A DNA stretch of 64,000 nt, taken from NCBI RefSeq assembly GCF_000701365.1, contig NZ_KL370778.1, forward strand, positions 263,561 through 327,560. Reading direction: 5' to 3'. The DNA is from Blastococcus sp. URHD0036 (GTDB lineage Bacteria; Actinomycetota; Actinomycetes; Mycobacteriales; Geodermatophilaceae). Below the pieces are notes generated by a model. It saw only the letters and a list, made by a program, of their open reading frames with translations, was not told the origin of the DNA and did no database searches. Positions 1,123 through 49,028 of this stretch are shown in pieces. Made by a program: the position numbers and the translations under genes. Every line of letters starts with the position of its first letter. Position 1 is the stretch's first letter.

Positions 1123-1160
1123 GATGACCATTCCTGAGGTGTCGACATGACACCATTTCT
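1123..1160 (-). promoter_or_regulatory. Shared upstream element of chemoreceptor genes, copy 1
   Basis: On the + strand this reads GATGACCATT, then seven bases later the palindrome TGTCGACA (1140-1147), followed by TGACACCATTTCT. It lies about 150 bp upstream of the receptor start at 989 and just past the terminator hairpin of the next receptor, so it is at the promoter end of this unit. Equivalent copies precede the other receptors in the window. I infer a regulator site or promoter part; the binding factor is unknown. Confidence 0.6.
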
Positions 1161-1187
1161 GGAGCGGTGAGCAGCCCCGGGAACGGC

Positions 1188-1223
1188 GAGAGCGCGGAAC
1201 CGGTGACCCGGTCCCGCGCTCTC
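1188..1223 (-). terminator. Hairpin terminator after the second chemoreceptor gene
   Basis: Arms GAGAGCGCGGAACCGG and CCGGTCCCGCGCTCTC form a 16-bp stem with one mismatch around a TGAC loop, 30 bp past the stop of the 1253-2890 gene. There is no long T tract, as is usual in high-GC actinobacteria. Confidence 0.7.
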
Positions 1224-1252
1224 TTCCCTCGCGCCCCCCGGCGCGTCCTGCG

Positions 1253-2890
1253 TCAGTAGCTGAAGCGGCTCACCGTCGTCCGCAGGTCGGCGGCCATGCG
1301 GGACAGCTCGTCGACCGCGGTGCGGGTCTGGGTCAGCGCCTGCGTGGTGGACTCGGCTGCGGTCGAGACCCCGGTGATGTTCTGCGCGATCTCCCCCGTG
1401 CCGCCGGCCGCCTCCTGCACCGAGCGGGCCATCTCGTTCGTCGTGGCGGTCTGCTCCTCCACAGCCGAGGCGATGGTCGTCTGCCGGTCGGCGATCTGGG
1501 CGACGATCGAGGAGATCTCCCCGATCGCGGCGACGGCAGCGGTGGTGTCGCCCTGGATGGCCTCCACGCGGCGCGCGATGTCCTCCGTGGCCTTGGCGGT
1601 CTCCTGCGCCAGCTCCTTGACCTCGTTGGCGACCACCGCGAAGCCCTTGCCGGCCTCGCCGGCGCGGGCGGCCTCGATCGTCGCGTTGAGCGCGAGCAGG
1701 TTGGTCTGCTCCGCGATGGAGGTGATGACCTTGACGACGTTGCCGATCTCGGCCGAGGACTCGCCCAGCTTCGCCACGGTGGCGGTGGTGGTCTCCGCCG
1801 CCGACACCGCACGCGACGCCACATCCGACGCCTCGGCCGCGTTCGACGCGATCTCCCGGATCGAGGCACCCATCTGCTCCGCACCCGCGGCCACGGTCTG
1901 CACGCTCCGGCTGACCTCCTCGGCCGCCGAGCTGACCACGCCGGACTGCGCGCTGGTCTCCTCCGCCGACGCGGAGATCTGCGCCGACGAGGCGCTCAGC
2001 TCCTCCGACGACGCCGCCACCGCGTCCGCGGCACCGACCACGGTCGCCATCACACCGCGCAGCTCCACCACCGCGGCGTCCAGCGCCTGGCCCATCTGGC
2101 CCAGCTCGTCCTTGCTGGCCAGGCCACTCGCGCCGGTCAGGTCACCCTGCGACAGCTGCGTCGCGAGCTCCTTGACCTGGCGGGCCGAGCGGGCGATCCC
2201 GCGCGCGACGGCCCAGCCGACCGCCAGCGCCACGGCGATGCCGCCGATCAGGAGCGCGAGCGCCGTCGTCCGCTGGGTCTCGTACTGGTCCTGCGCGTCG
2301 GCCGCCGCCTGCTCGGCCGCCGCGCGCTCACCGTCCCCCAGCTCACCCAGCGCGTCCTCGACCTGCTGGGCGAGGGGCGCGGACTGCGTGGTCATCGCCG
2401 TGTAGAAGCCCACCTGGTCGTTGGCGAGGCCGAGCGGTGCGACCTGCGTCTCCGCGACCTGGATGTACTGGTCGAAGGTGTCGCTGATCTGGGCGAGCGT
2501 CTCCTGCTGGGCGGCGGTCTGCCCGACGGCCAGGTAGGTGTCCAGCTGGTCGTGGAAGGTCACCGCCAGGTCGTCCATGCCGGCCAGCTGCTGCTGGGCC
2601 ACGGCCGGGTCCGGCGTCACGAAGACGTCGCGCAGCTGCTTGCGGGTCTGCCCGATGGTGACCGCCATCGCGTCGAGCGCGGAGACGCCCTGCACGTTCT
2701 CGTCGTACATCTGCTGGGTCGCGTCGGCCGAGGACCCGAGGGCGAGGATGCCGGTCACGCCCACCGTGGTGGCGACGACGCCCGCGGCGCCCACGGCGGT
2801 GAGGATCTTCGTGCTGACGCCGCGGTCGGCCCACCACCTGGCGGAGGGCCGGCTCGCGCCGGACGCGGCGGGGGAGGTCGGGGTGCTCAT
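1253..2890 (-). CDS. Methyl-accepting chemotaxis protein
   Basis: Chemoreceptor of 545 residues starting [11 protein letters not shown] longer upstream reading frame exists, but this ATG places the first membrane helix at about residues 29-51 as expected. The extracytoplasmic four-helix-type sensor spans about 52-207, the second membrane helix about 208-230, then HAMP (about 230-282) and the coiled signalling domain. The hairpin tip reads [20 protein letters not shown], typical of the CheA-binding tip. There is no NWETF-type CheR-docking tail; the protein ends TVSRFSY. The cytoplasmic half is almost identical in DNA sequence to the 3176-4795 gene, while the sensor half differs. Ligand unknown. 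Confidence 0.96.
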
Positions 2891-3040
2891 GGTGCTGCTC
2901 CTGGAACTGGACGGGATCGAGGTGTCGGCGTCGCGTCGTCCCAGGGGTCCGGCGCGCGGCGTGAGGCGAAGATAGGGCCGAATCGGACGTTTACGGGCCG
3001 TTAACAGGGCGTGTCGGGAGCTCCCGGGAAATGACCCCGG

Positions 3041-3074
3041 TGACCGTTTTCCCGGTGTCGACATGACCATTTCT
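3041..3074 (-). promoter_or_regulatory. Shared upstream element of chemoreceptor genes, copy 2
   Basis: TGACCGTT, seven bases, then TGTCGACA (3056-3063) followed by TGACCATTTCT on the + strand. It is about 170 bp upstream of the ATG at 2890 and directly beyond the terminator of the preceding receptor. It matches copy 1 in order and spacing. Confidence 0.6.
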
Positions 3075-3116
3075 GTGCGACGGCGACTCGACAGCCGAAT
3101 GGCACGGGAATGCAGC

Positions 3117-3146
3117 AGGGGCGCACGGCGGTCGCCGCGCGCCCCT
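3117..3146 (-). terminator. Hairpin terminator after the third chemoreceptor gene
   Basis: AGGGGCGC and GCGCCCCT enclose an inner GGCG-GT-CGCC stem, 30 bp past the stop of the 3176-4795 gene on the minus strand. Confidence 0.65.
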
Positions 3147-3175
3147 GGTGCGGGACGGCCCCCTCAGGCCGGCAC

Positions 3176-4795
3176 TCAGTAGCTGAAGCGGCCCACCGTC
3201 GTCCGCAGGTCCGCGGCCATGCGGGACAGCTCGTCCACCGCGGTGCGGGTCTGGGTCAGCGCCTGCGTGGTGGAGTCCGCCGCCGACGAGACGCCGGTGA
3301 TGTTCTGCGCGATCTCCCCGGTGCCGCCGGCTGCTTCCTGCACCGACCGGGCCATCTCGCTGGTCGTGGCGGTCTGCTCCTCGACCGCGCTGGCGATCGT
3401 GGTCTGCCGGTCGGAGATCTGGGCGACGATCGAGCTGATCTCGCCGATCGCGGCCACGGCGGCGTCGGTGTCGCCCTGGATCGCGTGCACCCGACGCGCG
3501 ATGTCCTCGGTCGCCTTGGCGGTCTCCTGCGCCAGCTCCTTCACCTCGTTGGCGACCACCGCGAAGCCCTTGCCCGCCTCACCGGCACGAGCCGCCTCGA
3601 TGGTCGCGTTCAGCGCCAGCAGGTTCGTCTGCTCCGCGATGCTCGTGATCACCTTCACCACGTTGCCGATCTCCGCCGAGGACTCGCCCAGCTTCGCCAC
3701 CGTCGCGGTCGTGGTCTCCGCCGCGGTCACCGCCCGCGAGGCGACCTCGCTGGCCTCGGCGGCATTCGACGCGATCTCCCGGATCGAGGCACCCATCTGC
3801 TCCGCACCCGCAGCCACGGTCTGCACGCTCCGGCTGACCTCCTCGGCCGCCGAGCTGACCACCCCGGACTGCGCCGAGGTCTCCTCCGCCGACGCGGAGA
3901 TCTGCGCCGAGGACGCCGACAGCTCCTCCGACGACGCCGCCACCGCGTCCGCGGCACCGACCACGGTCGCCATCACGGTGCGCAGCTCCACCACCGCGGC
4001 ATCGAGCGCCTGCCCCATCCGGCCGAGTTCGTCGCTCGTGTCCAGGCCGCTCCGGATGGTCAGGTCGCCCCGCGACAGCGCCGCCGTCACGTCGCCGACC
4101 CCCGCCGCCTGGCGCGCGATGCCCCGGGCGATCCAGAAGCCGAGGCCGCCGGCGAGGACGATGCCCACCGCCATCAGCACGAGGGCGAGAATGCGCTGCG
4201 ACTCGTAGTCCGACCGGATGGAGGCGGCCGCCTGCTCGGCCTCCGCCGACTCGGCATCCCGCAGTTCCCGGATGCCCGCCTGGACGGCCTTGCCCAGCGA
4301 CGAGCCCTGGTCCGCGTTCTGCGCCATCCAGTTCGTGAAGTCCTGCGCCTGGGCCAGCGGCACGAGCACGTCCTGCTGGAAGCTGACGTACGCGTCTGCG
4401 TCGGTGAGGATCTGGTCGAGCGCCGCGGCCTTGCCGGCGTCGCCCATCGTCGTGGCGCGGTAGGTCTCCGCGGAATCCTGGAAGTCCGTGGCCAGGGTGG
4501 CGACCGCGGCCATGTTCGCGGCCGGCTCGGCGCCCAGGATCGTGTCCCGGATGTTCACCCGCATGTCGGTGACCAGTGCGTACATGTCCCCGATGGCGGC
4601 GACGCCCCGGAGGTTGCTCTCGTACAGGTTCTCCGCGGCGTCGGCCGAGGCGCTCAGCGCCTGCAGGCCCATGAAGCCGACCGCGCCGGTGACGACGGCG
4701 GAGAGCCCGACCGTGGCGAGCACCTTCGTCTTGACGCTGCGGTCGCCCCACAGGCGGGTCGCCCGCGGCACGGGGGTCGTCGTCGGGTCGGTCAT
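3176..4795 (-). CDS. Methyl-accepting chemotaxis protein
   Basis: Chemoreceptor of 539 residues starting MTDPTTTPVPRATR, with GGGAGA eleven bases before the ATG. A first membrane helix near residues 25-47 is followed by a helical sensor of about 155 residues, a second membrane helix (ILALVLMAVGIVLAGGLGFWI), HAMP and a signalling bundle with the [18 protein letters not shown] tip. It ends TVGRFSY. The signalling half is nearly identical to the 1253-2890 gene over roughly 200-bp blocks, which points to tandem duplication and gene conversion. The sensors are clearly different, so the two probably detect different signals. Confidence 0.96.
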   Translation of the reverse strand: MTDPTTTPVPRATRLWGDRSVKTKVLATVGLSAVVTGAVGFMGLQALSASADAAENLYESNLRGVAAIGDMYALVTDMRVNIRDTILGAEPAANMAAVATLATDFQDSAETYRATTMGDAGKAAALDQILTDADAYVSFQQDVLVPLAQAQDFTNWMAQNADQGSSLGKAVQAGIRELRDAESAEAEQAAASIRSDYESQRILALVLMAVGIVLAGGLGFWIARGIARQAAGVGDVTAALSRGDLTIRSGLDTSDELGRMGQALDAAVVELRTVMATVVGAADAVAASSEELSASSAQISASAEETSAQSGVVSSAAEEVSRSVQTVAAGAEQMGASIREIASNAAEASEVASRAVTAAETTTATVAKLGESSAEIGNVVKVITSIAEQTNLLALNATIEAARAGEAGKGFAVVANEVKELAQETAKATEDIARRVHAIQGDTDAAVAAIGEISSIVAQISDRQTTIASAVEEQTATTSEMARSVQEAAGGTGEIAQNITGVSSAADSTTQALTQTRTAVDELSRMAADLRTTVGRFSY

Positions 4796-4932
4796 CGCGT
4801 TCTCCCGGAATCTCAGAAATGGGGAAGGAAGTCGCGCCGGAGGGCCGCGCTCTGTTCCCAGGATGACTGATCCGAAACATCTCTGGTCATATATCTGCAA
4901 GCGTGTCGGAATCGAATCGGATGAAACGGGTC

Positions 4933-4959
4933 GACCATTCTGATCGCCATGTCGACATG
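4933..4959 (-). promoter_or_regulatory. Shared upstream element of chemoreceptor genes, copy 3
   Basis: GACCATT, ten bases, then TGTCGACA (4950-4957) and TG on the + strand, about 155 bp upstream of the ATG at 4795. An AT-rich stretch (GATATATGAC on the minus strand) lies between it and the gene and may hold the -10 region. Confidence 0.55.
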
Positions 4960-5000
4960 TGCGCAGAATGGACACGACGACCGATCACCGGAGAAAGCGA

Positions 5001-5032
5001 AGGAGCGCCCGGTCGGATGACCGGGCGCTCCT
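5001..5032 (-). terminator. Hairpin terminator after the fourth chemoreceptor gene
   Basis: A perfect 14-bp stem, AGGAGCGCCCGGTC and its complement, around a GGAT loop, 60 bp beyond the stop of the 5092-6699 gene. Confidence 0.75.
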
Positions 5033-5091
5033 CCGTGCCCCTGCACGGTGCGATCAGTGGCCCCCTCGCGCGGGCCGGACGGGGTGGCGGG

Positions 5092-6699
5092 TCAGTAGCT
5101 GAACCGGCCCACGGCCGCGCGGAGGCCCGACGCCATCTGGGACAGCTCGTCGACCGCGGTGCGGGTCTGCGCGAGCGCCTGGGTGGTGGAGTCGGCCGCC
5201 GTCGAGACGCCGGTGATGTTGTCGGCGATCTGGCCCGAGCCCTGCGCGGCCTCCTGGACCGAGCGCGACATCTCGTTGGTGGTCGCGGTCTGCTCCTCCA
5301 CCGCCGAGGCGATGGTGGTCTGCCGGTCGGAGATCTGGGCGACGATCTGCGAGATCTCGCCGATCGCGGCGACGGCAGCGGTGGTGTCGCCCTGGATGGC
5401 CTGCACCCGGCGGGCGATGTCCTCGGTCGCCTTGGCGGTCTCCTGCGCGAGCTCCTTGACCTCGTTGGCGACCACCGCGAAGCCCTTGCCGGCCTCGCCG
5501 GCGCGGGCGGCCTCGATGGTCGCGTTCAGCGCGAGCAGGTTGGTCTGCTCCGCGATCGAGGTGATGACCTTGACGACGTTGCCGATCTCGGCCGACGACT
5601 CGCCGAGCTTGGCGACCGTCGCGGTCGTGGTCTCGGCGGCGGTCACGGCGCGAGCGGCGACCTCGGAGGCCTCGGCGGCGTTGGTGGCGATCTCGCGGAT
5701 GGAGGCACCCATCTGCTCGGCGCCCGCGGCGACGGTCTGCACGTTGCGGCTGACCTCCTCGGCGGCGCTGGCGACGACGCCGGACTGGGCCGAGGTCTCG
5801 TTGGCCGAGGCCGAGATCTGCGACGACGAGGCCGAGAGCTCCTCGGACGAGGCGGCCACGGCGTCGGCGGAGGCGACGACGGAGGCCATGACGGTGCGCA
5901 GCTCGACCTGGGCGGCGTCCAGCGCGGCGGCGGTGCGGCCGAGCTCGTCCTTCTGGACGATCCCGGTGCTGCGGGTCAGGTCACCGGCGGCGATGCCCTC
6001 GGCGACGTGCTGCACGGCCTGCAGGGTGCGGCGGATGCCGCGGGCGACCGTCCAGCCCAGGCCGAAGGCCAGGAGGGCGCCGACGACGACGACGGCGATG
6101 AGGGCGGTGCGTGCGGAGCTCGCGGTGTCGGCGACGGAGTCGGCGAGCGCGGCGGCCTCGGTGGTCTCCGACTTCAGGAGGGCGTCGATGCCCTCACCGA
6201 TCTGGGGGAGCAGCTGCTGCGACTGGGCGTACAGGGCGCCGGCCGAGGCGGGGTCGACGGCGGCGGCCGCGGTCACCTGGGCGTTGAGGTCGGCCCACGC
6301 CGTGTAGGTCTCCTGCAGGCTGGCGGCGAGCTCGCGCTGCTCGGCGTTGGGAGCAGTGACGCCGTACCGCTCGGCGGCATCGGCGACGGCGACACCGGCG
6401 GCGGCGGAGGCCTCGGAGTACTTCGCGGCGTCGGCCGAGCCACTCGTCTGCTGGATGTAGGACATCGCCTGGTTCAGCTGGAGCTCGAGGAACTGGGCCC
6501 GCATCTCCTCGACCTCGAGGAGGCCGCGGGTGCTCTGCTCGTAGCTCTTCGCCGCGCTGTCCGCGGCGTCGTTCAGGGAGACGACGCCGACCGCACCGAC
6601 GGTGACGCCGGTGAGGACGGCCACGGAGACCGACGCGAGGATCTTGCGCGAGACCGACATGTCCGCGAGGACACGTCGACCACCACCGTTCTTTGCCAC
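5092..6699 (-). CDS. Methyl-accepting chemotaxis protein
   Basis: Chemoreceptor of 535 residues. I chose the GTG at 6699 (VAKNGGGRR) because GGAAG lies seven bases upstream; an ATG 13 codons in (MSVSRKIL) is the alternative. The first membrane helix is at about 17-40, the sensor is helical (about 41-185), and a second membrane helix ([22 protein letters not shown]) leads into HAMP and the methylated bundle with the usual [18 protein letters not shown] tip. It ends AVGRFSY. The DNA of the signalling part is less similar to its neighbours than the first pair is, suggesting an older duplication. Confidence 0.95.
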
Positions 6700-6892
6700 G
6701 ACAACACTTCCGATCGCACTGGGGGTGAGGGGCCGACCCGTTTCCTGCCCGGGCCGAGAAGTGCCGGAGGGAGCCGGCGACAGGTCAGAAGTTAGGGGCA
6801 GGACCGCCGTACCGAATGGCATTCGAGGCGTGTCGCAGCTTCCTGTTCACAACGGTTTCACAACGGAGTCGACACTTCTCGGAACCGTTTTT

Positions 6893-6923
6893 GATGACCA
6901 TTCTCTGCGATGTCGACATGACG
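6893..6923 (-). promoter_or_regulatory. Shared upstream element of chemoreceptor genes, copy 4
   Basis: GATGACCATT, eight bases, then TGTCGACATGACG on the + strand, about 212 bp upstream of the GTG at 6699 and 55 bp beyond the neighbouring terminator. The GATGACCATT and TGTCGACATGAC blocks are the same as in copy 1. Confidence 0.6.
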
Positions 6924-6978
6924 TCAGGGGAATGGCGGTGACTGTTTCGCGCCGGCCGGGGGAGTGCTCCAGACGACG

Positions 6979-7013
6979 GGAGCGCGGGACCGGTGTTCCC
7001 GGTCCCGCGCTCC
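6979..7013 (-). terminator. Hairpin terminator after the fifth chemoreceptor gene
   Basis: A perfect 15-bp stem, GGAGCGCGGGACCGG and its complement, around a 5-base loop, about 30 bp past the stop of the 7046-8653 gene. Confidence 0.75.
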
Positions 7014-7045
7014 GGCGGTGCTCGTCGTCAGGCGGTGCGCCTGCC

Positions 7046-8653
7046 TCAGTAGGTGAAGCGGTCCACCGTCCCTCGCAGGTCGACGGCCATCCGGGACAGC
7101 TCGTCCACGGCGACCCGCGTCTGGGACAGCGCCTGGGTGGTCGTCTCCGCGGCCGTGGACACGCTGCCGATGTTCTCGGCGATCTGCCCCGAGCCGCCGG
7201 CGGCCTCTGCCACGGAGCGCGACATCTCACTGGTCGTGGCGGTCTGCTCCTCGACTGCGCTGGCGATCGTGGTCTGCCGGTCGGAGATCTGGGCGACGAT
7301 CGAGCTGATCTCCTCGATCGCGGCCACCGCCGCCGTCGTGTCGCCCTGGATCGCCTGCACCCGGCGCGCGATGTCCTCGGTCGCCTTCGCCGTCTCCTGC
7401 GCCAGCTCCTTCACCTCGTTCGCGACGACCGCGAAGCCCTTGCCCGCCTCACCGGCGCGAGCGGCCTCGATCGTGGCGTTCAGCGCCAGCAGGTTCGTCT
7501 GCTCCGCGATGCTCGTGATCACCTTCACCACGTTGCCGATCTCGATCGACGACTCGCCCAGCTTGTTCACCGTGGCCGTCGTCGTCTCGGCCGCACTGAC
7601 GGCGCGCATCGCGACCTCGGAGGCCTCCGCGGCGTTCTGCGAGATCTCCCGGATCGAGGCACCCATCTGCTCGGCCCCCGCGGCCACCGTCGCGACGCTG
7701 CGCGACACCTCCTCGGCCGCCGTCGAGACCACGTTGGACTGCACCGAGGTCTCCTCGGCCGAGGCCGAGATCTGCGCCGAGGACGCCGACAGCTCCTCCG
7801 ACGACGCGGCGACCGCGGTGGCCGAGGCCGCGACACCGGCCATCACCTCGCGCAGGTTGGCCTGGGCCACGTCGAGCGCGCCGGCCATCTGGCCGATCTC
7901 GTCCCGGGAGGTGACGCCGGCGGACACGGTCAGGTCACCGGTGGCCAGCGCGTCGAGGGCGGCCTTGACCCGCTGCACCGGGCGGGTGATCGACCGGATG
8001 ATCAGCCAGCTGAGCGCGAGGACGACGACGACCGCGCCGAGGGCGACCGTGATGCTGAGGGTCTCCGCCCGTGCGATGGCGTCCGTCAAGGTCACCTCCG
8101 CGGCGCTGCGGGCGGCGGACAGCTCGTCCTTGGCGGCACCCACGGCACTGTCGGTGAGGTCGTTGGCCGTCTGGATGTCCTCCCACCGCACCCGGCTGCC
8201 GACCTGGTCGGCCACGGCGCCGTTCACGAACGCCTCGATGGCGGCGGTGTAGTCGCCGAAGCCGGCCTGCAGGGCGGCCACGGACTCGGCGGCCGAGCCC
8301 TCGAGCTCGATGGCGGCGAGCTCGGCGAGGATGCCCTCGGGGGTGGCGATGTCGTCGGCCAGCTCGGGCAGCTGCTCGGCGGGGACGTCGCGGACGAGCG
8401 CCTTGAAGCCGTCGACCTTGAGCTCGCTGGCCCGGGTGTCGAGCTGGAGGACGAGGGTCTCGGCGTCGGCGAGGTCCTGCAGCCGGGCGGTGGCGTCGCG
8501 GACGGTGCCGTTCCCGGCGATCACGACGGAGAGCAACCCGGCGAAGGCCAGGACGACGACCCCGACGAGCACGCCGAACTTCACCGCCAGGGGGCGGTCG
8601 GCGAACCAGCCGGCCGAGCGCGTGGCCGGCGGGGCGAGTGCGGTGGTGGTCAC
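7046..8653 (-). CDS. Methyl-accepting chemotaxis protein
   Basis: Chemoreceptor of 535 residues starting at a GTG with GGAG five bases upstream ([13 protein letters not shown]). The first membrane helix is at about 24-46 ([20 protein letters not shown]), then a helical sensor to about 190, a second membrane helix ([21 protein letters not shown]), HAMP ([11 protein letters not shown]) and the signalling bundle with the conserved tip. It ends TVDRFTY. It is the first of the five tandem receptor genes in transcription order. Ligand unknown. Confidence 0.95.
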
Positions 8654-8783
8654 GGGAACTCCATGGAGACAGGGACGACGAGGTGTGCGGCGCCAGCGTG
8701 GGGTCGCTCCAGCAACCGCCGACGTTCCCGCGCCCGTCAGTGACGAAATCGTGGTGTTTACGCCGGGTCGCGGTTCCCGGCGG

Positions 8784-8791
8784 TGTCGACC
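8784..8791 (-). promoter_or_regulatory. Degenerate copy of the chemoreceptor upstream element
   Basis: TGTCGACC, about 131 bp upstream of the receptor start at 8653, keeps seven of eight bases of the palindromic core; the GACCATT block is not recognisable. It is included because its position matches the other copies. Confidence 0.35.
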
Positions 8792-8884
8792 TGTCGATCC
8801 GCCGGTCCGGGTCCCCGCACGCGGCCCGCGGGGCCAGCGCCACCATCGACGCAGGTCATCCCCCGGATCGCCCGGGCGGTCGAC

Positions 8885-9628: not shown

Positions 9629-9688
9629 GCGTGCTCCTTGAGGGCGTCAGCGCGGCGCGCGCGCACGACGGTGGGCGAGGTCGGCATG

Positions 9689-11104: not shown

Positions 11105-11135
11105 ACCGCCCGCGACCCTACCGACCCGGGCCCGG

Positions 11136-11902: not shown

Positions 11903-11910
11903 GCGCCCTC

Positions 11911-11975
11911 CCAGGCATAGGAAGCAACACCCACGTCCCGGCCGTGAGGACGTGGGGAGAGCTTCCTATGCCTGG
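11911..11975. repeat. Structured palindrome, copy A (bipartite hairpin)
   Basis: Perfect 15-bp outer arms CCAGGCATAGGAAGC (11911-11925) and GCTTCCTATGCCTGG (11961-11975), a 4 by 4 internal loop, perfect 9-bp inner arms CCCACGTCC (11930-11938) and GGACGTGGG (11948-11956), and a 9-base loop. It lies between the stop of ngg and the start of crcB, so it may end ngg transcription. A second copy with the same layout is at 29126-29184, so it is a repeated element and not a gene-specific riboswitch. Confidence 0.75.
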
Positions 11976-12002
11976 CCGGTGCCGGGCGTCAGGCGGGTGG
12001 CC

Positions 12003-37786: not shown

Positions 37787-37914
37787 GGTCCCCCTCGCTG
37801 CTGGTGGTCTCCCGTCCGCAGACTCCCAGCCCGGCAGGCGGCGATCAACCGGTTCTGGGACGCATCCGTGCCGGTTCACCCAGGCGTGTCGGCAGAGCGC
37901 GGGAGAATGGCCGG

Positions 37915-39249: not shown

Positions 39250-39273
39250 CCCGCACCGACCCGGTGAGGGGGC

Positions 39274-39768: not shown

Positions 39769-39872
39769 CCCGGCCTCCGGACGAGGGGTTCCGATCGGGC
39801 GACGCTAGCCCCGAGGGCGTCCGCGGGGACTCGCCTGATGAGGGTGAGCGGCGTCCGGGAGACGATGGGGGT

Positions 39873-40460: not shown

Positions 40461-40474
40461 CCTTCCCCTCCCAG

Positions 40475-40517
40475 GCAGAATGGCGGTTCTGCACCGCGCG
40501 GAATGGCGGTTCTGCAC
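40475..40517. repeat. Two direct repeats forming small hairpins between convergent genes
   Basis: GAATGGCGGTTCTGCAC occurs at 40478-40494 and again at 40501-40517. The first unit forms a 6-bp hairpin GCAGAA-TGGCGG-TTCTGC. They lie between the stops of the methyltransferase and the PucR-type regulator and may be a tandem terminator. Confidence 0.55.
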
Positions 40518-40520
40518 GGT

Positions 40521-41699
40521 TCAGGCCGGGAGCGCCAGGGCCAGGGTCAGCTCCAGCACGGTGCGCGGGTCCTCGAGCCGGGTCCCGAACAGGTCCCGGA
40601 GCTGTCCCATCCGGTAGCGCACGGTCTGCGGGTGCACGAAGAGCTCGGCGGCCACCTGGTCGCGCCGGCCCTGGTGCAGCAGCCACGAGCGCAGCGTCTC
40701 GGTGAGCTTCTCCCGCGCCGTGTCCCCGACCCCGTCCAGCGGCGCCAGGACACGCCTCCGGAGGTCGGCCAGCGCGGTGGAGTCCGCGCGCAGCACCAGC
40801 TCGGCCAGCCGCTCCTCGGTGTCCAGCGGTGCGCTGCCCTCGGCGCGCAGGCCGAGCAGGACGGCCCGCTGGACGCGCGCGTGGGAGGTCTGCACCTCCG
40901 CCCACGGCCGCGGCGGGCCGACCACCGCCTCCCGTCCCTCCAGCGCCGTCAGCAGCGCGGCGCGTGCGCGGCCCTCGGCATCGGGGACGAGCAGCACCAC
41001 CCGCTCCGGTCCGGTGGCGCCCTCGGCCGGGTCCTCGGAGCTGACGAGGGTCCGCACGTCGAGCGCCGAGAGCGCGGCCCGGGTGTGCGCCTCCGGCAGC
41101 AGCACGGCGGTCAGGGTGCGCGGCGGCAGCCACTCCGCCTGCTCGGCTGCTGCGGTCAGGTCGCGCAGCGGACGGCCGGCGAGGAGCACGGCCCCGAGGC
41201 GTTCCAGGTTCCGGCGGCGGGCGCGACCGGTGGAGGCGAGCTCGTCGGCGTGGCCGGCGACGCTGGAGGCCGACAGCTGGTCGATGTAGGCGAACACGAG
41301 CTCGGCGAAGCGGGCCAGGCCCGCCGGGGACATCCCGGCGGCCACGGCGGCTCCGCTCATCTGCCGCCAGGAGACCCGGGCCCCGACCCGGTAGGCGGCC
41401 AGCAGCGCATCCATCGACCGGCCGCTGCGGGCCTCGCCGCGGCCCAGCGCGTAGGCGCCGTCCAGAGCAGGCCCCACCGGCCGGCTGGGGTCGGCACCAC
41501 CGGTGGCCAGGCTGAGGAACCCGCCCAGGGCCAGCTGGACGGCCCGGTCGATGGTGCGGCCCATGTCGCCGCTGAAGGCGTCGGCGTAGCTGGGGACCTC
41601 CACGACGATGGTGCGGATCGTCGACTCGGCGACGGCCGGCAGCTGTTCGGTGAGCGCCGCCACGACGTCGGGCGGGAACGGGTACTCGTCCTCGGGCAC
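40521..41699 (-). CDS. PucR/CdaR-type transcriptional regulator
   Basis: 392 residues from a GTG after AGGGGG. A central helical sensor region precedes a C-terminal helix-turn-helix (TLRSWLLHQGRRDQVAAELFVHPQTVRYRMGQLRDLFG), the hallmark of PucR/CdaR proteins. It is divergent from the ferredoxin reductase and DesA3-type desaturase genes, which it may control; similar neighbours occur in other actinobacteria. Effector unknown. Confidence 0.88.
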   Translation of the reverse strand: MPEDEYPFPPDVVAALTEQLPAVAESTIRTIVVEVPSYADAFSGDMGRTIDRAVQLALGGFLSLATGGADPSRPVGPALDGAYALGRGEARSGRSMDALLAAYRVGARVSWRQMSGAAVAAGMSPAGLARFAELVFAYIDQLSASSVAGHADELASTGRARRRNLERLGAVLLAGRPLRDLTAAAEQAEWLPPRTLTAVLLPEAHTRAALSALDVRTLVSSEDPAEGATGPERVVLLVPDAEGRARAALLTALEGREAVVGPPRPWAEVQTSHARVQRAVLLGLRAEGSAPLDTEERLAELVLRADSTALADLRRRVLAPLDGVGDTAREKLTETLRSWLLHQGRRDQVAAELFVHPQTVRYRMGQLRDLFGTRLEDPRTVLELTLALALPA

Positions 41700-41803
41700 G
41701 CAACCCCCTGCTCGGCGTCGGTTGTCTCCTGCGAACAAAGGATGCCAGCCGATTCACGTCGAGGGCACAGGTAGTTGTGCCGCAAACGGGGAAACCTCGA
41801 GAC

Positions 41804-42913
41804 ATGACCGTTACGCAGCCGAGTCCTTCCTCGACCCGGCCCCGACTGGCGGGGCTGCGCGACCGCGTCTTCCGGCTCGCCGAGCTGGCGACCACCCCGC
41901 TCCTGCCGTCGGACTACCTCGACCTGGTCGACCCGCTGCGCTCCGGCGCGGCGCTGCGCGGCCGCATCGAGGCGGTCCACCGGGAGACCCGCGACGCCGC
42001 GACCGTCGTGATCCGGCCGGGCCGCGACTGGCGCCCGCACGTCCCCGGCCAGTACGTCCGCATCGGCATCGACGTCGACGGCGTCCGCCAGTGGCGCGCC
42101 TACTCGATCACCTCGGTGCTCGGCCGGGCCGACGGCTGCTTCACCGTCACGGTGAAGGCCATCCCGGACGGGAAGGTCAGCAACCACCTGGTGCACCGCA
42201 CCGAGCCGGGCACGATCGTCCAGCTCGACCAGGCCACCGGCGAGTTCGTGCTGCCGCAGCAGACGCCCGACAAGGCGCTGTTCGTCACCGCGGGCTCCGG
42301 CATCACGCCCGTGATGGGGATCCTGCGCAACCTGGCCGACGACGTGGCGACCGACGTCGTCCTGATCCACTCCGCGCCCACCGCGGACGACGTCATCTTC
42401 GGCGCCGAGCTGCGCGAGCTGGCCGCCGCCGGGCGCATCCGGCTCGTCGAGCAGCACACCGACACCGACGGGATGCTCGACGCGGCCTCCATCGCCGCTC
42501 TGGTCCCCGACCTGGCCGAGCGCTCCACGTGGGCCTGCGGGCCGCTGCCGATGCTCGAGGCGCTGGAGCAGTACTGGGACGACGCCGGCGTGGCCGACCA
42601 GCTGTACACCGAGCGTTTCCGCCCGGCGATCGTGGCCGGCGACGGCGAGGGCGGCACCGTCACCTTCACCGCCACCGGGACGACGCTCGAGGCCGACGGC
42701 TCCACGCCGATCCTCGACGCCGCCGAGGACGCCGGCGTCCTGATGCCGAGCGGCTGCCGGATGGGCATCTGCTTCGGCTGCGTCCTGCCGCTGCGCGAGG
42801 GCGCCGTGCGCGACCTGCGCACCGGCGAGGTCACCACCGCCGCGCCCGGTGACGGCGTCCTCGTCCAGACCTGCGTCAGCGCCGCTGCCGGCGCCTGCGC
42901 CATCGACCACTGA
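41804..42913 (+). CDS. Ferredoxin reductase-type electron donor for the desaturase
   Basis: 369 residues starting MTVTQPSPSSTR. An FAD-binding part (VPGQYVRIGI, RAYSITS), an NAD-binding part (FVTAGSGITPVMGILR) and a C-terminal plant-type 2Fe-2S domain with cysteines in PSGCRMGICFGCVLP and QTCVSAAAG. It resembles mycobacterial Rv3230c, the reductase that feeds the membrane desaturase DesA3, whose homologue is directly downstream (33 bp). The pair forms a fatty-acyl desaturation operon. Confidence 0.93.
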   Translation: MTVTQPSPSSTRPRLAGLRDRVFRLAELATTPLLPSDYLDLVDPLRSGAALRGRIEAVHRETRDAATVVIRPGRDWRPHVPGQYVRIGIDVDGVRQWRAYSITSVLGRADGCFTVTVKAIPDGKVSNHLVHRTEPGTIVQLDQATGEFVLPQQTPDKALFVTAGSGITPVMGILRNLADDVATDVVLIHSAPTADDVIFGAELRELAAAGRIRLVEQHTDTDGMLDAASIAALVPDLAERSTWACGPLPMLEALEQYWDDAGVADQLYTERFRPAIVAGDGEGGTVTFTATGTTLEADGSTPILDAAEDAGVLMPSGCRMGICFGCVLPLREGAVRDLRTGEVTTAAPGDGVLVQTCVSAAAGACAIDH

Positions 42914-42946
42914 TCGCACCCCGACCCTGAGCTGAGGAGCGACCCC

Positions 42947-44143
42947 ATGACCGTCATCCAGAAGAAGTCCGACAACCCGATCGCGCACCTCACCGCCGAG
43001 GACATCGAGCTGCTGGGCAAGCAGCTCGACGCCATCCGGCAGAGCGTTCTCGACACCCGCGGCGCGGACGACGCCCGCTACATCCGCACCGTCATCGACG
43101 TGCACCGCAAGCTGGAGCTGGGCAGCCGCGCCGTCCTGCTGGCCTCGGGTTTCCCGCCGGCCTGGATCCTCGGCACGATCGGCCTCTCGGTGGCCAAGAT
43201 CCTCGAGAACATGGAGATCGGGCACAACATCCTGCACGGCCAGTGGGACTGGATGCGGGACCCGAAGATCCACTCCACGACGTGGGAGTGGGACATGGCC
43301 AGCCCCGCCGAGCAGTGGAAGCACTCGCACAACCAGCTCCACCACACGTACACGAACGTGATCGGCAAGGACAACGACCTCGGCTACGGGATCATGCGCG
43401 TCGACGAGGACCAGAAGTGGGTGCCGGCCTACCTGGCCCAGCCGCTGTGGAGCTTCATCAACGCCTGCTTCTTCGAGTACGGCATCGCGGCCTACGACCT
43501 GGAGCTCGGCAAGGTCATCGCCAAGGGCGAGACCAAGGACCCGGAGTTCCGTCGCCGCGCCAAGGCGGTGCTGGGCAAGATCGGCCGCCAGGTGCGCAAG
43601 GACTACGTGATCCACCCGCTGCTGTCCGGCCCGAACTTCGTGCCCACCCTCGCGGCGAACTTCGTCGCCAACGTCGTCCGCAACCTGTGGTCGAACTCGG
43701 TCATCCTGTGCGGGCACTTCCCCGAGGGCGTCGAGACGTTCGAGAAGCGCTCGATCGACGGCGAGACCAAGGGCGAGTGGTACGTGCGGCAGATGCTCGG
43801 CTCCGCGAACATCTCCGGCTCCAAGGCCATGCACCTCATGACCGGGAACCTGTCGCACCAGATCGAGCACCACCTGTTCCCGGACCTGCCGAGCAACCGG
43901 TACGCCGAGATCGCGCCGCAGGTGAAGGCGCTGTTCGACGAGTACGGCCTGAACTACCACGCGGCGCCGCTGCCGAAGCAGGTCTACTCGGCCTGGCACA
44001 AGATCTTCCGGCTCTCGCTGCCCAACGGCTGGCTGGACAACACGACGCCGAAGAACCTGCCGTCGCAGCTGGGAAAGCTGTGGAGGATGTCGACCGGCCC
44101 CAAGGCGCGCCGCCGCCTGCTGCTGCAGGCCGAGGCCGCGTAG
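42947..44143 (+). CDS. DesA3-like membrane acyl-CoA delta-9 desaturase
   Basis: 398 residues. Three histidine boxes bind the di-iron centre: GHNILHGQ, HSHNQLHH and HQIEHH. Hydrophobic segments (VLLASGFPPAWILGTIG and later ones) anchor it in the membrane. It introduces a double bond into stearoyl-CoA, adjusting membrane fluidity, with electrons from the preceding reductase. ATG with GAGGAG upstream. A strong terminator follows. Confidence 0.94.
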   Translation: MTVIQKKSDNPIAHLTAEDIELLGKQLDAIRQSVLDTRGADDARYIRTVIDVHRKLELGSRAVLLASGFPPAWILGTIGLSVAKILENMEIGHNILHGQWDWMRDPKIHSTTWEWDMASPAEQWKHSHNQLHHTYTNVIGKDNDLGYGIMRVDEDQKWVPAYLAQPLWSFINACFFEYGIAAYDLELGKVIAKGETKDPEFRRRAKAVLGKIGRQVRKDYVIHPLLSGPNFVPTLAANFVANVVRNLWSNSVILCGHFPEGVETFEKRSIDGETKGEWYVRQMLGSANISGSKAMHLMTGNLSHQIEHHLFPDLPSNRYAEIAPQVKALFDEYGLNYHAAPLPKQVYSAWHKIFRLSLPNGWLDNTTPKNLPSQLGKLWRMSTGPKARRRLLLQAEAA

Positions 44144-44157
44144 GCCCGCACCGTCGT

Positions 44158-44200
44158 ACGCCCGTGGCCCGGAACGCTCGTCGTTCCGGGCCACGGGCGT
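44158..44200. terminator. Strong 19-bp hairpin between convergent genes
   Basis: Perfect 19-bp arms from 44158 to 44176 and 44182 to 44200, with core CCCGTGGCCCGGAACG, around the loop CTCGT. Its right arm abuts the stop of the NAD-kinase-like gene, so it can end both the desaturase operon and the opposite operon. Confidence 0.85.
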
Positions 44201-45079
44201 TCAGATGAGCTGGAGCTGCCGCGCGGACCGGCGGACGGTGACCCGCTGACCCCAGGAGAGGGTCAGCCGGTCGGCCTCGAGCCCGTCGCCGAAGACCACC
44301 AGGCCGTCGGACTCCACCGACAGCTCCAGAGCCCCCTCAGCGGCGAGCAGACCCTCGGTGCACGTCGTCCCCGTGGCCGGTGACGGCCAGGCCTCCCGCA
44401 CGAACCAGGCCAGTGCCGGGTCGGTCGGCGCCGGCAGCGGCAGCGCGCTGTGCCGCTCCAGCCAGGCCGACCGGCACCAGCCCGTCGCACCGGTGCCGGT
44501 GGAGACCAGCACGCCGGACGACGCCTGGCGCTCCGGCTCCCCGCCCGGTGCCGTCAGGCGGTAGCGGGCCGTCTGGTGGCTCGGCGAGCCGAGGTACACC
44601 TCGTTGAGCGCCCGCAGCACCTGCCCGTCGTCGCTGACCGCCTCCACCATCGTCAGCGGCGTCGGCCGCGGCCGACGCCGCAGCAGGGCCGCGACGTCGT
44701 CGGGCCGGTGCCGGACCAGGACGCCCGGGTTGCGGCCGGGCTCGGGATCGACCCCGATCACCGGCTGACCGTCCAGGTACTTGGCGACGTTGGCGACCAG
44801 TCCGTCCTGCCCCACGACCAGGACGACGTCGTCCGGGGCGAACAGGAAGCGGGACAGGTCGGCCCGCTCCACGCTGCCCCTCCGCCAGTCCACCGGGATG
44901 GCCGCGGTGGCCGTGGCCAGTGCCCGGGCCTGGACGGCGTCGCGTTCGGTGACCTCGGCGATGTCGCGGCCCCGCGTGTGCAGGAAGAACGCCGCCTGGG
45001 CCGCCGTGCCGTGCCGGGCGACGAGCTCCCGCAGCTCGGTGCTGCGGGAGACCACCACCACCCGGGGCGCCAGGCTCAC
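44201..45079 (-). CDS. NAD-kinase-fold protein with altered GGDG motif
   Basis: 292 residues. The N-terminal half has [14 protein letters not shown] and [20 protein letters not shown], the place where NAD kinases have GGDG; here it reads [19 protein letters not shown] and STGTGATGW match the NE and TPTGSTAY motifs, and the end ([20 protein letters not shown]) fits the C-terminal fold. The fold call is strong, but the enzyme activity is uncertain. Its GTG overlaps the SPFH stop (GTGA), so the two are coupled; their divergent partner is an NrtR-type regulator, which supports a link to NAD(P). Confidence 0.8.
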
Positions 45080-46074
45080 CGGGCACCGCCGAGCTTGGCC
45101 AGTACCGGGGCCAGCAGGTCGGGGGTGAGCACGAGGCTCTCGATCTGCGGCAGGTTCTTCGCCAGGTCGGCTGCGGCCAGGGCGAGGAGCACGTCCGGGG
45201 CCACATCGGCGTGCGCGGCCAGGTAGGCCGCCGTGGCGTCGGCACGCGCGGCGCCGGCCAGCCGCTCGGCGTCCGCCCGGACCTGGGCCTCCCGCTGTTC
45301 CCGGTGGGCCCGGGCCTCGCTGGCCACCTCCGCGGCGGCCGCCGCCTGCTCGGCCTCCCGGCGGGCGTTGACGCCTCGTTGCCCGACCAGCTCCTCCTCG
45401 CGGCGGGCCAGCTCGATCTGGTTCGCCAGTTCGTTCTCGCTGATCGCCCGCTCGCGCTCCACGGCCAGGGCACGGCGCTCGTAGGTGGCCCGGTCGGCCT
45501 CCTGCTGGACCCGCTCGCGGGTGGGGGTCTGCAGCGCCCGCTCGACGTCGGCCTCGGGCCGGACGGCGACCACGCGCACCCCGATGACCGCGATGCCGGT
45601 CTCCGCCAGCCGGACGTCAGCGACCAGCCCCCGCTCCACGGCCTGCCGGACGGGAGCCACCCCGCCGGTGAGCGCGGTGGCGAGGTCCACGGTGGTCAGC
45701 AGGTCGAGCGCGTGCTGCTGGGCCGACTCGGTGAGCAGGCCGGCGACCTGCTCCAGGGGGGTGCCCCGCCAGCGGCCGGTGCCCGGGTCGATCGAGAAGT
45801 CCACCCGGGCGGCGGCGAGGCCGGGGTCGACGACGCGGAAGGTCAGCGTCATCTGCACGGTGGCGTCCTGGAAGTCCGCCGTCCGGGCGTGGAACAGCAG
45901 CGGCAGTTCGCGGTCGTCGACCGGGATCTCCGAGAGGACCGCCGAGAGGGGCCGGAACCAGAAGCTCGCTCCGGTCGCCGCCTGCACGACGCGGCCGTTG
46001 CGGACGCTGAGCACGTGCGCCGTCGCGCTGCTGCGCAGGTGGCGGACGAAGGGGTAGCGGGTGATGTCGGCCAT
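45076..46074 (-). CDS. Soluble SPFH-domain protein
   Basis: 332 residues, ATG with GGGAGG upstream. An SPFH/band-7 domain (about 15-190, [24 protein letters not shown]) is followed by a helical Ala/Arg/Glu-rich segment (about 190-290) and an Ala-rich end ([24 protein letters not shown]). There is no membrane anchor, unlike the flotillin at 35703-37235. It is coupled by overlap to the NAD-kinase-fold gene and divergent from the Nudix regulator. Confidence 0.82.
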
Positions 46075-46094
46075 CGGGGCCTCCCTCGGAGTTG

Positions 46095-46115
46095 TTGTCG
46101 TCGGACTGACGATAA
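46095..46115. promoter_or_regulatory. Operator-like inverted repeat 1 (likely NrtR)
   Basis: TTGTCGTC-N5-GACGATAA. With repeat 2 it is the paired site between the divergent SPFH operon and the NrtR-type gene. The arms TCGTC and GACGA match repeat 2 exactly. The centres are 34 bp apart, about three helical turns. Confidence 0.65.
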
Positions 46116-46128
46116 GCGGCTGCCACGC

Positions 46129-46149
46129 TTGTCGTCAAGCTGACGATTT
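46129..46149. promoter_or_regulatory. Operator-like inverted repeat 2 (likely NrtR)
   Basis: TTGTCGTC-N5-GACGATTT, six bases before the TAGGCT -10 box of the Nudix regulator, so it covers the -35 region and could give autorepression. Confidence 0.65.
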
Positions 46150-46154
46150 CTCGA

Positions 46155-46160
46155 TAGGCT
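46155..46160 (+). promoter_or_regulatory. Likely -10 box of the NrtR-type gene (leaderless)
   Basis: TAGGCT followed by six bases and the GTG at 46167; no ribosome site is visible. Confidence 0.6.
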
Positions 46161-46166
46161 CGTGTC

Positions 46167-46865
46167 GTGGCTGTCTACGACCCCGGCGCCTTCCCCCCGG
46201 TGGCGGTGACGGTGGACCTCGTCGTCCTCACCGTCCGGGAGGGCCGGCTGTGCGTGCTCGTCGTCCGCCGGGGCGAGGAGCCGTTCGCCGGGCAGGAGGC
46301 ACTCCCCGGGGGGTTCGTGCACCCGGACGAGGACCTGCTGGCCGCTGCCCAGCGCGAGCTGGCCGAGGAGACCGGGCTGACGCCGGGGGCCGCGCACCTG
46401 GAGCAGCTGGCCTCGTACGGAGCGCCGAACCGCGATCCGCGGATGCGGGTGATCACGGTCGCCCACCTGGCGCTGGTCGCGGACCTGCCCGAGCCGCGGG
46501 CCGGCAGCGACGCGACCGCGGCGCGGTGGGCGCCCGTGGACGAGGTGTCGCCCGGCCTCGCGTTCGACCACGACCGGGTGCTCGCCGACGGGGTGATCCG
46601 GGCGCGGGCGAAGCTCGAGTACACCGCGCTGGCGTCGTCGTTCTGCGGGCCGGCGTTCACGGTCGCCGAGCTGCGAAGGGTCTACGAGGCGGTGTGGGGC
46701 CGGCCGCTGGACCCGCGGAACTTCCACCGGAAGGTCACCGGTGCCGCCGGCTTCCTGGAGCCGACGGGGGAGCTGACGACCCGGGACGGCGGCCGGCCGG
46801 CCCAGCTCTACCGCCAGGGCACCGCCGCGGCCCTGTACCCGCCGCTGCTGCGCTCCGAGAACTGA
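46167..46865 (+). CDS. NrtR-family Nudix transcriptional regulator
   Basis: 232 residues from GTG. The N-terminal Nudix domain has a complete box GGFVHPDE-x7-RELAEETGL, so it could still hydrolyse ADP-ribose-like compounds. The C-terminal winged helix ([27 protein letters not shown]) is typical of NrtR proteins, which sense ADP-ribose and control NAD synthesis in other bacteria. Two inverted repeats precede it. The divergent SPFH and NAD-kinase-fold operon is its likely target; classical nad genes are not nearby. Confidence 0.9.
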
Positions 46866-46894
46866 CCACCGGCCCGGCCAGCGACTCCCCCGTG

Positions 46895-46908
46895 CTCCAC
46901 GTGGAACG
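46895..46908. other. parS-like site D (one mismatch)
   Basis: GCTCCACGTGGAAC, 13 of 14 bases of sites A-C, between the convergent NrtR-type gene and the sixth chemoreceptor gene. Confidence 0.5.
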
Positions 46909-46923
46909 TCCCCCGGAGCGGCC

Positions 46924-48873
46924 TCACCAGGTGAAGCGACCCACGGTGGTGCGCAGGTCCGCCGCCATCCGGGACAGCTCGTCGACCGCGGTGCGCGTCT
47001 GGGTCAGCGCCTGCGTGGTCGACTCCGCGGCCGTGGAGACGCCCGTGATGGTGTCCGCGATCTGACCCGACCCGTGCGCGGCCTCGGCGACCGAGCGGGC
47101 CATCTCGTTGGTCGTGGCGGTCTGCTCCTCCACCGCGCTGGCGATGGTGGTCTGGCGGTCGGAGATCTGGGCCACGATCTGCGAGATCTCGCCGATCGCG
47201 GCGACGGCGGCGTCGGTGTCGCCCTGGATGGCCTCCACGCGCCGCGCGATGTCCTCGGTCGCCCTGGCGGTCTCCTGCGCCAGCTCCTTGACCTCGTTGG
47301 CCACGACGGCGAAGCCCTTGCCCGCCTCACCGGCCCGGGCGGCCTCGATCGTCGCGTTCAGCGCCAGCAGGTTCGTCTGCTCGGCGATGCTCGTGATCAC
47401 CTTCACCACGTTGCCGATCTCGGTCGAGGACTCGCCCAGCTTCGCCACCGTCGCGGTGGTGGTCTCCGCGGCGGTCACGGCGCGCATCGCGACCTCGGAG
47501 GCCTCCGCCGCGTTCGACGCGATCTCCCGGATCGACGCACCCATCTGCTCGGCACCGGCAGCCACGGTCTGCACGCTCCGCGAGACCTCCTCCGCAGCGC
47601 CGGCCACGACACCGGACTGGGCCGAGGTCTCCTCCGACGAGGCCGAGATCTGCGCCGACGAGGCGCTCAGCTCCTCCGACGACGCCGCCACGGCACCGGC
47701 CGAGGCGACGACCGAGCCGATGACCGTCTGCAGGCCGGCCAGCGCCTCGTCGAGGGACGCCGCCGCCTGCCCGATCTCGTCCCGCTGGGCGATGCCCGTG
47801 CGGGTGGTGAGGTCGCCGTCGGTCAGCGCACGGATGGTGTCCCGCATCCGGCGGATGGGCGACACGGTGGCGGCGAGGAAGCCGGCGATCAGGTACGCGG
47901 CGACGAGCACCCCGGCCCCCGCCACCACGAGCGCCTGCACCTCGTCCGACCGGAGGCCGTCGATGCGGGTGTCGAGCAGCGCGTCGAGGTCGGGGAGCAG
48001 GTCGTTCCACAGCGCACCCACGGAGGCCGTCGCGGCGACGGCGCCGTCGGCCGCTCCGCCGTCCAGGCTGATCGCGCCACCGGTCAAGGCGGTGGTGAGG
48101 GTCTGGACGACGGTCGCCACCTCGCCGAGCGTCTGCTCGACGTCCGCCTGCCGGCCCAGCAACTCGGCGTCGGCGGTCACGCCGAAGGACTTGGCCAGCC
48201 CGTCGCGGATCGCGGTCAGCCCGGTGTCCACGGACCCGAGGTCCCGGGCCGCCTGCAGGCGCGCGGCCTCGATCCGCACCGGGTCACCGCTCGCGGCCGC
48301 GAGCAGCAGCCCGTCGAGCGCCGAGGTCAGGTCCGCGATGAGCTGCGGCAGCCGCACCGTGACGGAGTCCATCACGTAGTAGGAGTCCAGGTCGGGGTCG
48401 AGGGTCAGGTTCGAGCCGTCGGCTGCCGCGCTGATGAGCGCCCGCACGGACACCCCGGCCGTCGCCCACGCGAGCTCGACGTCCCGGACCGGCCCGGTCG
48501 CCGTCTGGGCGGCGGCGATGTCCTGCTGGGCCGCGTCCCACGCCTCCGCGGTGCCGAGTTCGGCGCCGAACTCCTCCTGGGCAGCGGCGACGTCGGCCAG
48601 GGCGGAGCTGAGGTCGCCGGAGGCCGGGTCGCCGGTGACCGCGGCGACGCGTGCCGCGACGACGTCCTGGAGCAGCACGGCCATGGGCTCCACCACCGCG
48701 ACGCCGTGGCGCTCCAGGTCGCTGAAGGCGATCTGCTTCTCCTGGCCCTGCACGTACAGGGCCATCGCCCAGGTCAGGGGGAGGCCCATCGCGAGGACCA
48801 GGGCCGTGATCTTCCACGGGTACGCCAGGCGGCTCATGGCCGCCCGGGACGGGTGGAGAAGGACATCGAGCAT
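46924..48873 (-). CDS. Methyl-accepting chemotaxis protein with a long sensor
   Basis: 649 residues. I chose the ATG at 48873 ([13 protein letters not shown]) because AGGAG is eight bases upstream. The first membrane helix is at about 20-42; the extracytoplasmic helical sensor is about 290 residues, nearly twice that of the five tandem receptors; a second membrane helix ([21 protein letters not shown]) leads to HAMP and a signalling bundle close in sequence to the others, ending TVGRFTW. It lies 38 kb from the cluster but has the same type of upstream core at 49021. Ligand unknown. Confidence 0.94.
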
Positions 48874-49020
48874 GGCCGGGCTCCTCGCGGACGGGCCGAC
48901 GGCGAAGCCTGCCGGCGCCGCGCAGCATGCCGCCCGGGACGGGGCCCCGGCGCGCAGGCGGCGCCGTTCTCCGCGAGACCGTGACGCGACCGGCGGGTCG
49001 CCGTTCCGAAGGAGCGGACA

Positions 49021-49028
49021 TGTCGACG
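49021..49028 (-). promoter_or_regulatory. Core of the chemoreceptor upstream element, distant copy
   Basis: TGTCGACG (in ACATGTCGAC from 49018), about 148 bp upstream of the receptor start at 48873, at the same distance as in the tandem cluster. GCCGTT upstream is a weak match to the GACCATT block. Confidence 0.4.

Follow-up and report, generated by a model that had tools for sequence, protein, structure and literature searches.

Six genes for methyl-accepting chemotaxis proteins (MCPs; here receptors g1-g6) lie in the window analysed here, a stretch of 64,000 nt from Blastococcus sp. URHD0036 (contig NZ_KL370778.1, C18 in locus labels; own genome of 5.18 Mb), each preceded by an element centred on TGTCGAC, in full or reduced form. 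Judged from its conservation, this element is probably the activating, upstream portion of a composite promoter for receptor genes in the Geodermatophilaceae, a family of soil and rock bacteria, and also for cheA in some of its members. Towards the gene, the promoter comprises block A, block B, block C and a -10-like box. An earlier note on this DNA had proposed the element as the target of a chemotaxis or motility regulator, which the conservation of block A and of the composite before receptors in many Geodermatophilaceae supports; the element is, however, larger than the note described, and stands at a fixed distance from the -10-like box. Tentatively, and at slightly less than even confidence, these promoters would define a lineage-specific Geodermatophilaceae chemotaxis regulon, in which a candidate activator acts on TGTCGACA and GGTCACCGACC at -35-less promoters of receptors, and of some cheA and cheB genes, outside the sigma-28 flagellar class; two geometries would each have their own -10 type, sites would be shared with cell-wall and development genes, and the receptor make-up would be set by the programme of the motile cell and not by flagellar assembly.

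Architecture of the composite promoter

Receptor genes were drawn from the own genome, two same-genus genomes and 75 loci of named genomes among the matches listed, mostly Blastococcus, Modestobacter, Geodermatophilus, Klenkia and Nocardioides, giving 205 distinct upstream regions of up to 450 nt each, which include related, partly overlapping loci. TGTCGACA occurs in 89 of these 205 regions, with 1.3 expected from 15 dinucleotide shuffles; the 89 are among the 167 regions outside Klenkia and the Nocardioides, Aeromicrobium and Cellulomonas loci, and none of the 23 regions from the latter three genera contains it.

The block layout emerged when regions were centred on TGTCGACA or CGACAC. Block A is TGTCGACA, sometimes CTTGTCGACAAG; block B is GGTCACCGACC followed by an A/T-rich tail, (A/T)TTCT, and starts 29 nt before block C, which reads CGACACGC. 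The -10-like box, TAnnnT or CAnnnT, starts 41-43 nt after block C, with no conserved -35 between the two in the aligned short- and long-spacing classes, and most spacer columns between blocks are low in information. This spacing was apparent before any profile was trained: 30 of the 40 CGACAC(G/A)-to-TAnnnT pairs within 11-89 nt lie at 41-43 nt, and the distances from A to C mostly cluster at 37-39, 46-49, 53-56 and 80-83 nt. Pairs of GTCGAC and GGTN(A/G)(C/T)CG within 6-69 nt number 89, compared with 3.45 in resamplings, and peak at spacings of 17 nt (30 pairs) and 24-25 nt (28 pairs).

A promoter profile trained on the same receptor regions placed 88 of the 205 above its 14-bit threshold, the best score among order-1 resampled background regions being 10.0. 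After merging of repeats, the 88 regions comprised 40 short-class, 30 long-class and 15 other promoters. Block A is mainly found at either of two positions separated by 8 nt, with which the box type varies: the T-first form (TAnnnT) is present in 27 of the 40 short-class promoters and in 1 of the 30 long-class ones, where CAnnnT prevails.

The conserved upstream sites, the fixed distance to the -10-like box and the lack of a -35 point to an activator-dependent promoter. Blocks A and B could alternatively be repressor operators or sites of a chromosome-organising protein; they are dyad-like, and the direction of regulation is not readable from sequence alone, but the single orientation, the fixed distance to a -35-less box and a place at about -50 to -105, which would be typical of activation, make this explanation unlikely. 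Five receptors stand in tandem, and gene copying takes the promoter along, so the likeness could also be a functionless leftover of duplication. This is very improbable, given that the blocks persist while the spacer columns are low in information, that spacing is limited to a few discrete values, that in three genomes cheA has the composite in front of it, and that blocks A and B (A+B) precede cheB and two unrelated genes.

Receptor promoters in the window

Because all six receptor genes are encoded on the minus strand, the element is read in the gene direction as TGTCGACA...AATGGTC; the GACCATT of the earlier note is AATGGTC on the coding-strand reading, on the promoter-proximal side of TGTCGACA. 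The features are as follows.

1..989, minus: receptor g1, N-terminal part, extending past the window (open frame; receptor C-terminal match at C18:262958-263461)
1103..1110, minus: g1 block C, CGACACGC; weak whole-promoter score of 2.7 (best resampled region 10.0)
1119..1129, minus: g1 block B-like GGTCATCGACC, starting 19 nt before block C, compared with 29 in the family consensus
1140..1147, minus: g1 block A, TGTCGACA, exact match
1253..2890, minus: receptor g2 (MCP); NCBIfam matches are MCP families, under their cut-offs
2969..2974, minus: g2 -10-like box TATCTT, 42 nt after block C
3009..3016, minus: g2 block C, CGACACGC
3035..3045, minus: g2 block B, GGTCACCGGGG (sequence match GGTCACCG)
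3056..3063, minus: g2 block A, TGTCGACA; short-spacing class, 47 nt to block C
3176..4795, minus: receptor g3 (MCP); Pfam MCPsignal and 4HB_MCP_1 over cut-off
4901..4908, minus: g3 block C, CGACACGC
4929..4936, minus: g3 block B-like GGTCGACC, degenerate
4950..4957, minus: g3 block A, TGTCGACA
5092..6660, minus: receptor g4 (MCP), 61% identity to g2; alternative GTG start 39 nt further upstream
6789..6794, minus: g4 -10-like box TAACTT, 41 nt after block C; promoter score 33.2
6828..6835, minus: g4 block C, CGACACGC
6867..6874, minus: g4 second block A copy, TGTCGACT, 39 nt before block C
6893..6899, minus: g4 GGTCATC, block B-like, adjoining the distal A copy
6911..6918, minus: g4 block A, distal copy, TGTCGACA, 83 nt before block C
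7046..8653, minus: receptor g5 (MCP), 59% identity to g2
8784..8790, minus: g5 GTCGACA, diverged promoter type
46924..48873, minus: receptor g6 (MCP); Pfam MCPsignal and HAMP
49021..49027, minus: g6 GTCGACA

The distances from TGTCGACA to CGACACGC are 37 nt (g1), 47 nt (g2), 49 nt (g3) and 83 nt (g4), and several other g4-type promoters carry similar second A copies at 37-40 nt. The pair TGTCGACA-N25-85-CGACACGC occurs four times in the window, always at g1-g4, with a mean of 0.015 and a maximum of 1 in 200 order-1 resamplings. The g2 promoter, with a profile score of 34.1 against the best resampled value of 10.0, is also, at 30.2 bits and E 2.7e-6, the own genome's top match to the covariance model described below, being itself one of the 39 sequences on which that model was built.

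The arrangement reported in the earlier note, GACCRTT with TGTCGAC before four receptors, was recovered as GACCRTT-N5-12-TGTCGAC at 1126, 3042, 4933 and 6896, with 0.01 expected in the window; genome-wide, the combined pattern has five sites in 5.18 Mb, four of them those of these receptors. Reduction of the element at g5 (8784) and g6 (49021) likewise held, both having GTCGACA without the full TGTCGACA. The g5 upstream region contains no CGACACG, many g5-like genes of relatives have GTCGACA at a comparable place, and GTCGACATGTCC is also found upstream of a same-genus relative of g6 (L047). Measured distances to the start, 158 bp (g1), 173 bp (g2), 162 bp (g3) and 258 bp (g4, or 219 bp from the alternative GTG), agree closely with the 130-212 bp claimed; the GTCGACA of g5 and of g6 is some 131-154 bp upstream of the start.

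By itself the heptamer is weak: TGTCGAC occurs 24 times in the window on both strands, compared with 15.9 expected, and 2 of 100 shuffles reach 24. Genome-wide, TGTCGACA has 33 places compared with 20 for a reversed control, which leaves no need to regard most of the remaining copies as related. Chance repetition of GTCGAC was ruled out by the counts of the combined pattern, of the 205 regions and of A-to-C pairs relative to expectation, and a terminator feature was rejected because the block lies outside the hairpin, as read from the sequence, and also precedes cheA and other genes.

In the receptor upstream regions, GAATGG (66 compared with 11.7 expected) and CCATTC (80 compared with 20.4) are enriched; in the receptor intergenic regions of the window (990-8860) some of them flank blocks A and B as arms, with spacing that varies. 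Just upstream of g6 lies a gene for the replicative helicase DnaB with an intein (NCBIfam; 49094-51874, minus strand). Outside the cluster, the receptor at L016 (G000:C4) lacks TGTCGACA, and CCTCAAG...GCCGACC upstream of it has a sigma-28-like look.

Distribution and promoter class

A hidden Markov model of the element gave 161 matches at E<=1 in the collected loci, training rows included. Same-strand positions upstream of receptors account for 129 of them; the other 32 include own-cluster sites in loci outside the receptor list, weak matches, one cheA site and additional receptor sites. The covariance model, sequence-only and built on alignment A2 (39 rows chosen by hand from 49), matched the own genome at 39 places with E<=10. 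Thirty loci were retrieved, among which the receptor and cheA promoters are those of g2 (30.2 bits), cheA (24.1) and g1 (16.1); neither an MCP gene nor cheA is present in the remaining 27, of which 25 score below g1. Of 57 genomes of the family, 29 have a match at E<=1e-3; at E<=0.05 the number is 46. The best matches of the 29 best-scoring relatives (L168-L196) lie in loci with an MCP or cheA gene in every case, and many weaker ones lie elsewhere and look like noise. Spread beyond the family was considered and rejected: in a class search of 148 genomes including the own, 8 of the 147 others had a single weak match (E<=0.003), and no MCP, cheA or cheW gene occurs at any of these 8 loci, stricter filters in that search losing weak matches.

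Flagellin promoters (30 loci, L058 and L213-L241, from 22 genomes) have a different signature, the sigma-28-type consensus (C/G)TCAA-N15-16-GCCG(A/T), in 24 of 30 loci, and none of these regions contains the composite, TGTCGAC or GTCGACA. Conversely, the consensus is absent from all 88 element-bearing receptor regions and present in 3 of the 117 others (0.2 expected across all 205), the form used in the promoter-class test, with counts of 24 of 30, 0 of 88 and 3 of 117, being (C/G)TCAA-N13-17-GCCG(A/T)(A/G/T). The motif marks flagellin and is missing from element-bearing receptors, and the receptor element is distinct from the flagellin promoter. The note's view that the element does not belong to sigma-28 is thereby supported, and a sigma-28 (FliA) promoter appears excluded for element-bearing receptors by the absence of its motif. 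A general flagellar regulon was also rejected: no composite match exceeds 6 on C11:1-40k, and a single one on C12:440-481k (9.7) is within the resampled range, in addition to the flagellin result.

In the comparison with che and flagellar promoters that the note had also suggested, flagellin genes are unmarked, the composite precedes some cheA genes and A+B variants precede cheB in relatives. The own cheA promoter has TGTCGAC plus G (seven of the eight positions of block A), blocks B and C and CCCTACGTTTCC in the short geometry. Within 750 nt upstream of cheA, the composite exceeds 14 in 3 of 15 genomes: the own (22.2), the same-genus L176 (27.2) and L129 (43.5), the last with block A reduced to TCGACA. 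Before cheB, CTCAA-N13-18-GCCGA lies near -80 in 17 of 18 upstream regions, the own region being a near match missed by the pattern, and GTCGACA or TGTCGAC lies at -230 to -300 in 10 of the 18. Nine of these ten run on into a conserved stretch ending GTAACG, and six of the eight regions lacking either heptamer look like coding sequence there. The receptor element resembles promoters of the sigma-28 (FliA/WhiG) type in standing before receptor and che genes, the cheA and cheB genes of the family also bearing sigma-28-like motifs, and differs from them in its 41-43 nt from block C to the box and in lacking the family flagellin motif.

The usual spacing between -35 and -10 is 16-18 nt. An alternative sigma factor reading the blocks as -35 and -10, with two sigma factors for the two spacing classes, would account for the pairing of two box types with two spacings; the far greater distance from block C to the box, with no conserved -35 between, and the absence of the sigma-28-type motif from element-bearing regions make it quite improbable.

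Several observations weigh against the reading of the element as the activating part of a receptor promoter. The family counts are not independent events, because they come from related genomes with overlapping loci. The well-scoring whole promoters of the own genome are those of g2, g4 and cheA only: the g1 and g3 promoters are weak or at background as wholes (g3 scores 6.6, and five other places in the window reach 6.8-8.5), and g5 and g6 retain block A only. Two unrelated own-genome places (C11:468003, 20.5 bits; C18:301422, 17.3 bits) outscore g1, and five other receptor-like loci of that genome lack TGTCGACA, one of them (L015) having TGTCGAC at -111, inside the apparent end of the preceding gene. 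Block A is missing from all 15 Klenkia receptor regions, and one genus, labelled g3 like the receptor (nine genomes), gives no model match below E 0.012, flagellin being present in all four of its genomes examined. Before cheA, the composite is lacking in 12 of 15 genomes (scores <=5.3 within 750 nt), and 14 of the 15 have a sigma-28-like motif at about -75 to -95.

The match at C18:301422 is window 37862-37914 (minus strand; E 0.03); it contains CCATTCT and CGACACG, has no MCP or cheA gene nearby and is probably due to chance.

For the activating element, one or more putative DNA-binding proteins would occupy blocks A, B and C, with block C about 50 bp upstream of a start predicted some 7 nt after the box. 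The bound proteins would recruit RNA polymerase carrying a sigma factor other than sigma-28 to the -35-less promoter, and this would allow receptor genes to be turned on apart from the flagellin genes of the sigma-28 class. Receptor and che genes of the best-known bacteria are late genes of the sigma-28 class; here the sigma-28-type motif is on flagellin, and element-bearing receptors carry another promoter. A 2013 review (PMC4255298) states that WhiG had not yet been analysed for its part in the motility and chemotaxis of simple motile actinobacteria. In the own genome, a FliA/WhiG-like sigma gene adjoins flagellin (TIGR02479, 154 bits, below the cut-off of 189.6), and among ten proteins near che and flagellar genes scanned with Pfam, which include two receptors and two without any family, this FliA-like sigma is the sole DNA-binding one, so that no candidate for the regulator emerged from these ten.

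Candidate regulators and targets beyond chemotaxis

Flagellar and chemotaxis genes are described in all Geodermatophilaceae studied in PMC9686282, and expression of MCP genes increases along with that of flagellar genes while sporangia form in Actinoplanes (PMC11960193); PMC10746217 gives background on the subject. Among the matches listed in the open-licence literature, none describes the element or a Geodermatophilaceae chemotaxis regulator.

Known developmental sites would place the receptors in an existing network, with block C (GACAC) bound by WhiA, block B (GTCACC) as an MtrA half-site and perhaps BldC on the A/T patches, an explanation that is rather unlikely. The WhiA motif of Streptomyces is a short asymmetric GACAC, with no consistent orientation and no further motif found to accompany it (PMC3781837). 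Columns 1-5 of block C read GACAC in both the short and long classes (92-100% per column, CGACAC having partly served to anchor the alignment); unlike WhiA sites, GACAC here belongs to a larger composite and keeps a constant distance to a -10-like box, and alone it is short and common. For MtrA, the Streptomyces site is GtnAcC-n5-GTnAcn, and one bldM site reads TGTCGAA (PMC13189361). GTCACC fits the first half, but there is no second repeat: at the column that it requires, 11 nt from where GTCACC begins, short-class promoters have G in 2% of cases. Sites of BldC differ in length and consist of consecutive 9-bp repeats, AATTxxxx(C), to which its protomers bind (PMC5859096). Here AATGCGGTC is similar to one such repeat, and the positions of block A differ by steps of 8-9 nt, but the A/T patches have no strict 9-bp period by eye. 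An M23 peptidase gene among the A+B targets is in keeping with such a network.

Two further activators were compared. TcrA, a developmental activator in a motile actinomycete and similar in that respect, recognises in Actinoplanes missouriensis a 21-bp direct repeat, nnGCA(A/C)CCG-n4-GCA(A/C)CCGn (PMC12691653); the repeat GCA(A/C)CCG with its 4-nt spacer is not in the receptor-promoter consensus. Group I and II sites of the response regulator BldM are 16 bp long (palindrome TCACcCgnncGgGTGA and sequence TGnnCCGnnCGGGTGA; PMC4125116). Block B shares TCACCG with BldM sites, but neither sequence is in that consensus.

For the proposed activator, the consensus offers a defined bait for finding a candidate regulator; how an upstream activator works at two registers could readily be tested on the two spacings, each paired with its -10 type.

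A few non-chemotaxis genes also have A+B. The pattern TGTCGACA-N8-38-GGTCRCCGA has 49 places in 29 of 54 family genomes, compared with 4 for the reversed control, six of the 49 being identical copies in one genome (G045). Thirty retrieved loci comprise 12 of chemotaxis (7 MCP, 4 cheB, 1 cheA), 4 of a gene X, 3 of an M23 peptidase (assigned by Pfam for one locus and by similarity for two) and 11 others. The single own-genome match is the X locus (L287), not a receptor. Gene X, which follows the promoters at L274, L277, L279 and L287 (G000:C6:97883-97919), encodes repeated LWGAGP-type stretches. A 37-nt layout, TTGTCGACAAG or similar plus GGGTC(A/G)CCGA, followed by a CCTACCTTTC-like box, is constant in these four loci and in two of the 11 others (L273, L275). 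The peptidase gene encodes a secreted coiled-coil protein and is preceded by TGTCGACA-N18-GGTCACCGA in three genomes (L263, L265 and L289, ~1500). Since A+B precede both the M23 peptidase gene and gene X, the regulon is not purely one of chemotaxis, which suggests a regulator of a developmental cell type instead of a pure chemotaxis regulator. GTGAC repeats also occur near the M23 peptidase promoters, and the six identical TGTCGACA...GGTCACCGA copies of G045 probably belong to a repeated mobile element.

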